A DNA stretch of 55,985 bases from Bacteroidota bacterium. GTDB lineage: Bacteria > Bacteroidota > Bacteroidia > J057 > JAJTIE01. The notes beneath the pieces were generated by a model. The model saw only the letters and a list, made by a program, of their open reading frames with translations. It was not told where the DNA came from and did no database searches. The stretch is from positions 1-55,985 of the forward strand of contig JAHBTG010000012.1 in NCBI GenBank assembly GCA_019638695.1, given 5' to 3'. Positions 10,049-28,128 of this stretch are shown piece by piece (the stretch's first letter is position 1; every line of letters starts with the position of its first letter). Position numbers and translations under genes: made by a program.

Positions 10049-10223
10049 GCGTGAGGATAAACCCTTTGTTCTTACGAAACGGCTTTAGGGGAACTCCGCC
10101 CTGCCAGATGTATTTGGGCATCCCCTCACACCCCCGGCCGTTTCCCAATGAGAAGGCACTGATATACCCATTTACACCGGATGATGTCTTTTCCCATCTT
10201 GGGATATACACCCCTGCAAAATC

Positions 10224-10357
10224 GGCCTAACAGCAAAAGGGGAAGAAGAGGGGCCTGTGTGCAGGCGAACAGCCCAAAACACTGTTTGAGCCCCTGCCAG
10301 GGGCGAGTTTGTTTTGGGCCGCCGGAGCACAAGTAACTCCCCTTTTGCTGTTCAGCC
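10224..10357. repeat. Composite hairpin element, copy A (134 bp)
   Basis: A long inverted repeat of nested stems. The outer stem AACAGCAAAAGGGGA (10229-10243) pairs perfectly with 10338-10352. The middle stems are TGTGC/GCACA (10258-10262 with 10327-10331) and GGCG/CGCC, then GCCCAAAAC/GTTTTGGGC (10272-10280 with 10311-10319), with a small G/C hairpin at the tip. A second copy at 27837-27972 has nearly the same core but different outer-stem bases that still pair. No protein is encoded. It could be a MITE-like or REP-like mobile unit, or a structured RNA. Confidence 0.75.
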
Positions 10358-10368
10358 TTGATTTTTGG

Positions 10369-10394
10369 GTACTTTTTTATCAAGAAAAAAGTAC
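10369..10394. repeat. AT-rich hairpin following composite element A
   Basis: A perfect 10-bp stem GTACTTTTTT / AAAAAAGTAC with the loop ATCAAG. The same 26-base hairpin lies at 27985-28010, again just after a composite hairpin element. Runs of T follow the stem on either strand, so it could also act as a terminator. Confidence 0.75.
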
Positions 10395-10436
10395 AAATAA
10401 AGAATTGGGCCGTACCCTATATACGCCAGCAGAGCG

Positions 10437-10462
10437 AGATCCTTCGCTGCGCTCAGGATGAC
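10437..10462. repeat. Dispersed repeat, AGATCCTTCGCTGCGCTCAGGATGAC type, copy A
   Basis: A 26-base sequence with an internal imperfect palindrome (ATCCT and AGGAT ends), repeated exactly at 28056-28081 in the second repeat island. It resembles widely dispersed bacterial intergenic repeats. Confidence 0.7.
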
Positions 10463-10487
10463 GCGGGGGGAGGGGCGCCGCCCACCC

Positions 10488-10515: not shown

Positions 10516-10543
10516 GGTACAGTTCCGGATCCACAGCAGGAGG

Positions 10544-10562
10544 CCCCGAAACGAGTTCGGGG
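10544..10562. repeat. Short palindromic repeat, second copy of the 57-75 element
   Basis: Identical to 57-75: stem CCCCGAA / TTCGGGG, loop ACGAG. It closes the repeat island that fills most of the 713 bases between the patatin gene and the next gene; no coding sequence is visible in that interval. Confidence 0.7.
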
Positions 10563-10670
10563 CGACTGGTACCGCTAAACGATAGCGTGCCGGGCGGGCT
10601 CATACGGCCCCTTACCTTGCAGTAACTATTAAAGCTGCAAAACCTGTATCTTCGTTAGATGCTTTCCCCA

Positions 10671-25762: not shown

Positions 25763-27565
25763 TTACCGGGCTTTGATCACCATGATGACAATATCATCCG
25801 TCTGCCGGTTGAAGAAGCCCTTCCATTCATCAAGGGCGGTATTGAGTGCGGTTACCTGGTCTGTGGCCTCCAGTGGTGCCACCTGCTGCAACAGCTCGCG
25901 GAAGGCCTTTCTGCCAAACTTGCGGGCCGGGGCGGCGGGGCCCCCGAACTGGTCTATAAATCCGTCGGAGAACAGGTAGAGCGTGTCTCCGCTGTTCAGC
26001 TCCAGTTGCTGGTTCTTGAAGATGACATCCGGGTGCAGCGTGCCGCCTATGGGCCGCCGGTCTGCGGGAATCTCCGTGACATCCCCCGTGGCGGACACTA
26101 TGTGTGCATACCGCATGGCGGCGGCGTAGTTTACAGTGTTGGTGCCTTCATTAATGGTGACCAGGCTCATCTCTATACTGTCCTGTATGGTGTCCTGGTC
26201 CGTAGAGTGCTGATCCAGTGTGTACCGCATTTCCTGGTCCAGTTCGTCCAGGATGCTGGCGGGGTCTGTCATCCCGCGCTCGTCCACCAGTTTGTGCAGC
26301 GTAGTGATGCCAATGATGCTCAGGAACGCCCCGGGCACGCCGTGGCCGGTACTGTCTCCCACCGCTACTACGGTCTTGTTCTTCCATTTGCCCACCCAGT
26401 AGAAGTCTCCGCTCACCTGGTCCAGCGGGCGGAAGAGGACTCCCACATCCAGTCCGGCGGGGGTTAGCTCCCGCAGTTGTTCCGGCCGGGGCATAATGGC
26501 CCGCTGGATGCGGCGGCTGTAAATAATGCTGTCCTGCAGCTCATCGTTCTTGTCTTTGAGCTGGTGTTCTATCATTTCCTTGGCGGCCTCCAGGTCGGCA
26601 TAGAGCTTTTCCTGCTGTGCGCGGGCTTCGAGCAAGTGCTGTTCCTGTTCTTTCTGCCGGGTGATGTCAAAGCGCACAGAGATGTATTTGACCGGGTAGC
26701 CTTTGGGCCCCAGCACAGGGGTGACAGTGGCCACCACCCAGTAGATAGAGCCATCTTTGGCCTTGTTGGCCACTTCGCCCTGGAAGAACCTGCCTTCTGA
26801 TATGGTCTTCCACATGTCCACGAATACTTGGTCCGGCTGCAGGCCGCTTTTGAGGATGCGGTGGTTCTGGCCCATCAGTTCCTCTCTGCTGTACCTGGCA
26901 ATGTGGCAGAAGGTATCGTTGGCAAAAGTGATATTGCCCGCCAGGTTGGTTTCGCTGACGATGGCGGCATTGTTCAGGGCATTGACCTGGCCCATCAGTT
27001 CCACCTGGGTGGTGCCCAGCTCTTCATTGGTGGCGCTCAGTTCTTCCAGTGTCTGGCGCAACTCTTCCTCGTGGCTGTGCAGCTCCTCCACATGCTGGTG
27101 CAGCTCTTCTTCCAGGGCTTTCTGCCGGGTGATGTCAAAGCGCACGGCAATGTATTTCACCGGTTTGCCGGTGAGCTCGTCCAGTATGGGCGTGAGGGTG
27201 GCCGCCACCCAGTAGTAAGAGCCGTCCTTGGCTTTGTTCTTGATCTCGCCCTGCCAGAGGTTTCCTGTGGATATGGTGTGCCATAGCCGGGTAAACAATT
27301 CATCGGGCTGGTGCCCGCTCTTGAGGATGCGGTGGTTCTGGCCGATGAGTTCCTCCCAGCGGTAGCGGCTGATCTCTACGAACTTGTCATTGGCAAAGGT
27401 GATATTGCCCTGCAGGTCCGTCTCGCTCACCAGGGCGCTGTTGTGCAAGGCGCTCATCTGCGCCATCAGTTCAAATTTGACGGCTTCTGCATTCTCTCTT
27501 TCGGCAAGTGCAACGGTGTCTTCGCCAGATTTTTTGAACCAGGAAGTGAATTTTTTGAGATCCAT
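25763..27565 (-). CDS. PAS-PAS-SpoIIE (PP2C/PPM) serine phosphatase
   Basis: A 600-residue cytoplasmic signalling phosphatase. Two PAS domains lie at about 35-155 and 195-310; both carry the phrase GQNHRILKSG and end in RFDITRQK, so they arose by internal duplication. A coiled coil separates each module. The SpoIIE/RsbU-type catalytic domain occupies about 355-600, with the metal aspartates in VAVGDSTGHGVPGAF, LFSDGFID and TDDIVIMV intact. Family biology: it dephosphorylates serine or threonine on STAS or similar partners after PAS sensing. No STAS or anti-sigma gene is adjacent. The PAS modules and their linkers resemble those of the large sensor at 52185-55985. Confidence 0.92.
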   Translation of the reverse strand: MDLKKFTSWFKKSGEDTVALAERENAEAVKFELMAQMSALHNSALVSETDLQGNITFANDKFVEISRYRWEELIGQNHRILKSGHQPDELFTRLWHTISTGNLWQGEIKNKAKDGSYYWVAATLTPILDELTGKPVKYIAVRFDITRQKALEEELHQHVEELHSHEEELRQTLEELSATNEELGTTQVELMGQVNALNNAAIVSETNLAGNITFANDTFCHIARYSREELMGQNHRILKSGLQPDQVFVDMWKTISEGRFFQGEVANKAKDGSIYWVVATVTPVLGPKGYPVKYISVRFDITRQKEQEQHLLEARAQQEKLYADLEAAKEMIEHQLKDKNDELQDSIIYSRRIQRAIMPRPEQLRELTPAGLDVGVLFRPLDQVSGDFYWVGKWKNKTVVAVGDSTGHGVPGAFLSIIGITTLHKLVDERGMTDPASILDELDQEMRYTLDQHSTDQDTIQDSIEMSLVTINEGTNTVNYAAAMRYAHIVSATGDVTEIPADRRPIGGTLHPDVIFKNQQLELNSGDTLYLFSDGFIDQFGGPAAPARKFGRKAFRELLQQVAPLEATDQVTALNTALDEWKGFFNRQTDDIVIMVIKAR

Positions 27566-27766: not shown

Positions 27767-27789
27767 GTGCCGAACTGGTTTCGGCATTC
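27767..27789. repeat. Decayed REP-like palindrome
   Basis: CCGAACTGGTTTCGGCATTC resembles the TGCCGAA-TTCGGCA palindrome at 10488-10515, with a changed loop. It opens the second repeat island, a 739-base non-coding gap (27566-28304). Confidence 0.5.
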
Positions 27790-27836
27790 CCCGGCACATG
27801 GCACCGTGCGCACCGCACACCCCTGCGGGAAAGAAC

Positions 27837-27972
27837 GGCCTAAGCGAAAAGGGCGAAATCGCGGGAGCGGCCGGAGGCGAACCGCCCAAAACACTGTTTG
27901 AGCCCCTGCTAAGGGGGCGAGTTTGTTTTGGGCCGCCGCAAGGTCGTACACGCCGCCCTTTTCAGTTCAGCC
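27837..27972. repeat. Composite hairpin element, copy B (136 bp)
   Basis: The same architecture as 10224-10357: GGCCTAA left end and GTTCAGCC right end, core GCCCAAAAC/GTTTTGGGC (27884-27892 with 27925-27933) and GGCG/CGCC next to it. The outer stem here is AAAAGGGCG/CGCCCTTTT (27847-27855 with 27954-27962), where copy A has AAAAGGGGA/TCCCCTTTT. The middle stem is GCGGCC/GGTCGT (27867-27872 with 27942-27947), where A has TGTGC/GCACA. Both arms changed together, so pairing appears conserved. Confidence 0.75.
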
Positions 27973-27984
27973 TTGATTTTTTGC

Positions 27985-28010
27985 GTACTTTTTTATCAAG
28001 AAAAAAGTAC
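27985..28010. repeat. AT-rich hairpin following composite element B
   Basis: Identical to 10369-10394: stem GTACTTTTTT / AAAAAAGTAC, loop ATCAAG. It lies 12 bases after element B, as its twin lies 11 bases after element A. Confidence 0.75.
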
Positions 28011-28055
28011 AAATACAGCATCGGGCCGTATCCTGTATGCGCCAGCAGAGGTAGG

Positions 28056-28081
28056 AGATCCTTCGCTGCGCTCAGGATGAC
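28056..28081. repeat. Dispersed repeat, copy B of the 10437-10462 sequence
   Basis: An exact 26-base copy of 10437-10462. The sequence between it and the AT hairpin (GGGCCGTA-CCT-TAT-CGCCAGCAGAG) is also largely shared between the two islands. Confidence 0.7.
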
Positions 28082-28128
28082 ACTGCGTGAGAACAGGACA
28101 AGTATTTTTACAGCAGAACCACCCCCTA

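Follow-up and report, generated by a model that had tools for sequence, protein, structure and literature searches.

The closest described systems are the dispersed intergenic palindromes of the REP, BIME and REPIN kind, the bacterial MITEs (NEMIS, ERIC and RU-type) and, as an analogy of mechanism, the end hairpins of IS200/IS605, in which a folded single strand is read by structure. REP classes measure 20-40 bp and carry GTAG or CGTC tags; the GTAG classes are tied to RAYTs, and for the CGTC classes no transposase is known (PMC3733652). The CGTC-tagged REP super-family is reported from five phyla including Bacteroidetes, mostly as HH dimers whose stems have 8-9 bp and whose loops have 4-5 nt (PMC3733652). 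Genes of the Bacteroidetes RAYT subclass 2.6 have been reported with flanking 'atypical secondary structures' (PMC6006769). The long hairpin considered here appears not to be described in the open-access text of published REP surveys, an open-access literature search with its sequence motifs returned only unrelated papers, and no Rfam family matches it at gathering score, a relaxed threshold giving a chance match only.

The window in this study is the whole stretch of 55,985 nucleotides analysed, contig JAHBTG010000012.1 of a Bacteroidota bacterium, in which a sequence-only reading had placed two copies of a composite hairpin element. Both copies were confirmed at 10224-10357 and 27837-27972, and the differences between their stems had been quoted exactly. 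Their similarity extends beyond these positions, by ~40 bp with a tail hairpin and by a further ~60-90 bp downstream. Each unit is an imperfect hairpin of ~135 nt with sequence-free stems and a fixed apical motif, followed by a pyrimidine-rich tail hairpin of ~26 nt. When folded as RNA, the window copies gave z = -6.1 and -4.1, and none of 200 shuffles folded equally well. The parts are given below, with scores from the full model (R1) and the apex model (R2).

10155..10178, + strand: GGCACTGATATACCCATTTACACC, the terminal inverted repeat that marks the left end of the MITE subfamily, at copy 1
10224..10357, + strand: copy 1, long imperfect hairpin with subfamily B stems ACAGCAAAAGGGG/CCCCTTTTGCTGT; R1 model 134 bits; ends GGCCTAAC ... 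TTCAGCC
10272..10319, + strand: P2 helix of copy 1 (10272-10281 paired to 10310-10319), with CTGTTTGA-GCCCCTGCCAGGGGC-GAGTT inside it as the conserved core
10282-10310, + strand: core motif of copy 1, with a homologous core in other phyla; R2 model match 10272-10320
10369..10394, + strand: tail hairpin of copy 1, GTACTTTTTT-ATCAAG-AAAAAAGTAC; the complement of its loop, CTTGAT, comes before it
10436..10464, + strand: short flanking palindrome GAGATCCTTCGCTGCGCTCAGGATGACGC by copy 1, reverse complement GCGTCATCCTGAGCGCAGCGAAGGATCTC, with a GCGNAGC apex
27837..27972, + strand: copy 2, long imperfect hairpin with subfamily A stems GAAAAGGGCG/CGCCCTTTTC; R1 model 144 bits
27884..27934, + strand: P2 helix of copy 2 with the conserved core CTGTTTGA-GCCCCTGCTAAGGGGGC-GAGTT; core motif 27894-27924
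27985..28010, + strand: tail hairpin of copy 2, GTACTTTTTT-ATCAAG-AAAAAAGTAC
28055..28083, + strand: short flanking palindrome GAGATCCTTCGCTGCGCTCAGGATGACAC by copy 2

Copy 1 is located after the terminator-like end of an ORF, and copy 2 lies between divergent genes, that of a PAS-PAS-SpoIIE protein to its left and a DUF2480 gene to its right. The product of the former (25763-27565, - strand) combines two PAS domains with a SpoIIE phosphatase domain, and long internal direct repeats occur in the DNA coding for its PAS region. Another short palindromic family, of the CCCCGAAACGAGTTCGGGG / CCGAACTGGTTTCGG type, was seen in the window at 52-84, 119-151, 10539-10571 and 27770-27795; its members are intergenic and scattered, and sometimes adjoin the hairpin element.

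The shared ends and core of the supposed two-copy element held good, but the count of two did not, since the genome from which the window comes (G000; 146 contigs, 2.94 Mb, 96% complete) has 26 full-length copies by the R1 model, on both strands, together with contig-end fragments. Many of its contigs end within a copy, as repeats behave in short-read assemblies. All 25 classable copies are intergenic, in all combinations of neighbouring gene directions and with no preferred orientation; some, window copy 2 among them, sit in divergent promoter regions. Such mixed orientation is a poor fit to a cis-acting leader or terminator, and on this ground that role was rejected.

Two main stem types were distinguished, subfamily A with GAAAAGGGCG/CGCCCTTTTC and subfamily B with ACAGCAAAAGGGG/CCCCTTTTGCTGT. 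The apical stem is exchanged in L060-L063 and L066 and the innermost stem in L060, L061 and L066, on both arms every time. The innermost stem, GCCCAAAAC/GTTTTGGGC, had been described as fixed; this is correct for the two window copies and fails elsewhere, 7 of its 10 pairs covarying and the stem reading GTCAACC/GGTTGAC in L060 and L061. Across the 26-copy alignment, which was fitted to the covariance model, 97.2% of stem cells are paired against 87.5 +/- 0.5 in shuffled controls, two-sided changes occur in 24 of 47 stem pairs against 11.2 +/- 1.6 (reached in 0 of 500 shuffles), and covariation scores 0.276 where shuffling gives 0.105 +/- 0.008, although part of this stems from a few subfamilies, so that independent events are fewer than the cell counts. 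A 19-copy MAFFT alignment made with no model gave a like picture (98.0% of stem cells paired against 92.8 +/- 0.5 shuffled). Among the stem pairs of this genome G-U exceeds A-C, 22 to 9 (p = 0.03, the cells not being independent).

Further copies with unpaired stems had been named beforehand as evidence that would count against selection on folding. One was found, L064, a recombinant chimera that joins the 5' half of one type to the 3' half of another and has P2 unpaired; the pattern is not overturned by one copy in 26. In two further copies, L003 (G000:C46 near 21250) and L024 (G000:C83 near 15500), the tail loop ATCAAG is exactly inverted to CTTGAT with its arms unchanged, which is an inversion or template-switch footprint.

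The constant part of the element consists of CTGTTTGA, a stem and GAGTTT, usually capped by a GNA mini-hairpin GCGNAGC, in place of which the apex in G000 has a longer GC stem. Around the GC stem, CTGTTTGA//GAGTTT forms an apical asymmetric loop with would-be tandem G-A pairs at its sides. The layout common to the various genomes begins with a foot, GGCCTNAG-like or other, and basal stems that vary, continues through a 5' bulge and a P2 of ~10 bp to the asymmetric loop of the core, and is closed by a GNA-looped GC stem. A T-rich tail hairpin, for example GTTACTTTTGG-ATCAAG-CCAAAAGTAAC, is present in Bacteroidota and Proteobacteria and absent from the Firmicutes examples, and tail variants with different stems occur in other genomes.

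A phylum-wide scan of GTDB representatives with the pattern CTGTTTGAGCGNNGCGAGTTTG matched at least 118 stretches, against a chance expectation, estimated from composition, of less than one. The matches listed came from Bacteroidota, beta-, gamma- and delta-proteobacteria, Nitrospirota, Clostridia, Gastranaerophilales and CPR, and two of them fall in viral contigs. The pattern is silent on the flanks, and pairing there is thus an independent test. Among the 62 non-redundant loci in the matches listed, 27 have the eight nearest positions paired without exception, compared with 0.6% when arms were swapped between loci; the arms around the core are unrelated between genomes yet complementary. Forty-two loci aligned across phyla, picked by their best-pairing register, which inflates the share of paired cells (register was chosen in this way for the swap control too), gave a covariation score of 0.727 against 0.164 +/- 0.022, with all eight P2 pairs varying two-sidedly and ~5 G-U among ~285 paired cells. 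Mismatches in the 62 loci (7 G-U against 4 A-C) show no strand bias. The two core positions left open in the pattern read NA in all 62, that is, a GNA loop on G-C pairs, and the asymmetric loop and the 5' bulge near P2 are likewise retained across phyla. A GNA loop on two G-C pairs is extraordinarily stable in DNA, GCGAAGC having a Tm of 78 C (PMC4686876). The proposal of selection on folding is supported, the stems covarying within G000 and those of the homologous core also from phylum to phylum.

Detection depended on the part of the element used. The full model R1 found no match in 59 relatives, whose copies escape it because the stems diverge too fast, and an earlier pattern with the P2 sequence fixed matched, phylum-wide, the own genome only. 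The apex model R2 does detect the copies of relatives, with counts of 25 in G000, 21 in G464, 8-10 in other Bacteroidia, 43-60 in three Ralstonia genomes and 63 in Hungatella effluvii.

Like the GTAG-tagged, RAYT-mobilised REP, BIME and REPIN elements, the family is made up of dispersed intergenic palindromes with frequent inverted pairs and with conserved mismatches in the stems. It differs from them in being a ~135-nt hairpin with a tail rather than a unit of 20-40 bp, in having a conserved apex rather than a tag, in a core conserved across phyla and in a host genome (G000) without a RAYT. Where those elements have a hairpin of 20-40 bp footed by a GTAG/GTGG tag, here the feet GGCCTAA...TTCAGCC enclose a hairpin of 134-136 nt. 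From the CGTC REPs the long hairpin is a separate and much larger object, without the CGTC tag, the 8-9 bp stem or the 4-5 nt loop. It is the short palindromes beside it that resemble them: those next to type-A copies begin GTCAT or CGTCAT, and in five type-A copies short palindromes GTCATCCTGAGCGNAGCGAAGGATCT flank both sides in inverted orientation, sharing the GCGNAGC apex. These flanking palindromes may well be CGTC-type REPs. The GTCATCCTGAGCGNAGCGAAGGATCT palindromes, on the reverse strand, adjoin both window copies (10436-10464 and 28055-28083), and the variant on the left is identical to that on the right in L052 and L061. We place the long hairpin with the REP, BIME and MITE kind; it lacks the defining features of the published REP classes.

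Subfamily B is a MITE of ~310 bp with the hairpin inside it and with some imperfect target duplications. Its noncoding copies L226, L227, L236 and L237 measure 309-321 bp and are bounded by 23-bp terminal inverted repeats, GGyAnTGATATAC..., and by 8-bp target duplications of which TAAAAAAT is perfect, AACCaGTT/AACCtGTT and AACCTgGA/AACCTaGA agree at 7 of 8 positions and one case at 6 of 8. A related copy, L235 (G000:C69:25681), is bounded by the same kind of repeats around another centre; its 8-bp duplication, CTCAGGAG, is perfect, and in place of the hairpin apex it carries an unrelated palindrome, GCCAGATCC...GGATCTGGC. The resemblance to NEMIS, ERIC and RU-type MITEs lies in the size, the terminal repeats, the target duplications, the transcribable hairpin and the non-autonomous nature of subfamily B. 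The difference is that the hairpin core occurs free of these repeats in most copies (type A, window copy 2 included) and in other phyla, and that the cognate transposase was not located. Window copy 1 has kept the left end of the MITE (10155-10178) and lacks the right repeat because its right part is type A. An autonomous parent was sought through the terminal repeat at C146:5818 (L238), with unrelated ORFs as the result and the contig ending before any transposase; the repeat there heads an AT-rich stretch that runs to the contig end and contains low-GC ORFs, one of them for a coiled coil. The stretch may belong to a larger element with matching ends. The IS200/IS605 analogy is limited by the absence of an HUH Y1 enzyme from G000 and by the 8-bp target duplications of subfamily B. 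Duplications of this length are not known from IS200/IS605 transposition.

Signs of mobility were also met outside the window's own genome. Among the best matches listed, 16 of 17 close neighbours in Ralstonia and Polaromonas stand head-to-head, 214-700 bp apart, against ~0.1 expected per genome, and both Pseudoxanthomonas pairs are tail-to-tail, so that the frequent inverted pairing typical of REPs is found in these three genera; inverted pairs are not the rule in G000. At one Ralstonia site the full pair is present in G657, while G668, G672 and G670 are without it between the same genes, G670 retaining only the apparent outer ends; at a second site G657 is occupied and G672 lacks the full pair. 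These are rearranged intergenic regions, with segments replaced or deleted, rather than clean empty sites with duplicated targets, and they show turnover without showing insertion itself. Long tandem arrays of (CAAACAGC)n and (GTATCC)n were seen in the spacer of the head-to-head Polaromonas pairs L281 and L283 (G656:C5), and GTTGCC arrays adjoin Pseudoxanthomonas copies (L137).

The search for a moving enzyme was carried out in 12 genomes for RAYT/Y1. The Y1 transposase domain PF01797 (E<=0.001) had no match in G000 (25-26 copies of the element) or in G238 (99% complete, ~10 copies), and no recognisable element adjoins any of 14 Y1 loci examined in other genomes; RAYT/Y1 was accordingly rejected as the driver. 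Of the earlier suggestion of a REP-type transposase substrate, the strict Y1/RAYT sense finds no support, and what survives is the REP/BIME-like organisation, dispersed, intergenic and partly in inverted pairs. An IS1595-type DDE enzyme, considered for the MITE subfamily on account of the 8-bp duplications, was dropped when none was found in G000, a genome only 96% complete in which the absence of an enzyme is not final. No neighbouring gene recurs, none of the 213 families among 122 neighbouring proteins being found in more than three, as would be expected if movement occurs in trans.

That the hairpins form a dispersed, folded family of mobile type is well supported. Our preferred reading, at a probability of about 0.58, is that of a non-autonomous BIME/MITE-like mobile palindrome, probably read as folded single-stranded DNA by an enzyme acting in trans. 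The recognised form would be a folded single strand or an extruded cruciform of DNA, for instance at the replication fork. The enzyme, encoded elsewhere and not a RAYT in G000, would read the geometry of apex and junction rather than stem sequence, so that the stems could drift wherever a change in one arm is matched in the other, pairing alone constraining them; template switching between the arms would help to preserve their complementarity. Both this enzyme and DNA, rather than RNA, as the active form are what we infer, the latter from the nearly G-U-free covariation between phyla, the want of strand bias and the DNA-type cap. The explanation as a whole is weakened by the failure of the searches to bring up an enzyme, by the want of clean empty sites in Ralstonia and by the longer GC stem that takes the place of the GCGNAGC apex in G000. 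Counting against DNA are the G-U excess in G000, which also fits RNA or one preferred DNA strand, and the hairpin and following T-run of the + strand, which resemble a terminator.

It is these same features, with the strong RNA folding of the window copies, the stem covariation, the conserved asymmetric internal loops and the tail hairpin behind the T-run, that speak for a structured RNA from the + strand, whether mobile itself, a small RNA or a 3' end of terminator type. The sequence-only reading had offered such an RNA, which is not favoured and seems rather unlikely to us given the failure to match Rfam, the mixed orientation to genes with some copies in divergent promoter regions, the almost purely Watson-Crick covariation across phyla with its lack of strand bias, and a conserved GNA triloop of DNA type. 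Watson-Crick-only covariation would be expected equally if template switching corrected the arms of palindromes mutually, with no selection or recognition, and the chimera L064 and the exact loop inversions in L003 and L024 fit such a process, which very probably does act on the arms and could be the source of much of the covariation. As a complete account, pure mutation bias is nevertheless improbable: it leaves dispersal, copy number, terminal repeats and target duplications unexplained, and it would erase the bulges and the asymmetric loop CTGTTTGA//GAGTTT, yet these persist across phyla, which is the reason for proposing recognition of the apex.

The terminal repeats and 8-bp duplications of subfamily B could make the whole an ordinary DDE-transposase MITE family with an incidental central palindrome, a view that is hard to reconcile with the lack of such repeats in most copies (type A, window copy 2 again), with phyla in which the core is conserved and the repeats were not seen, with conservation that is greatest in the interior and with the absence of an IS1595 DDE enzyme from G000; it is very improbable. 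Movement as a REP/REPIN by a Y1 (RAYT) HUH transposase is scarcely probable at all, despite the palindromic, intergenic, dispersed and pairwise inverted habit and the structures reported beside subclass 2.6 genes (PMC6006769), as PF01797 proteins are missing from G000 and G238 and Y1 loci elsewhere have no adjoining element.

Beyond the mobile palindrome read as folded DNA in trans, a broader proposal may be put forward tentatively, as something short of an even chance: that the elements represent a distinct class of mobile DNA spread over many phyla, with the apex (asymmetric CTGTTTGA//GAGTTT and GCGNAGC) read as folded single-stranded DNA, with free stems and with an enzyme not yet described. 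If this is true, a sizeable and little-noticed part of the intergenic DNA of several phyla would be one homologous mobile family defined by structure, and the question of which enzyme reads and moves a GNA-capped DNA hairpin could be tested in culturable relatives from Ralstonia, Parabacteroides or Hungatella. It would also mean that stem covariation, the usual proof of a functional RNA, can arise in mobile DNA.
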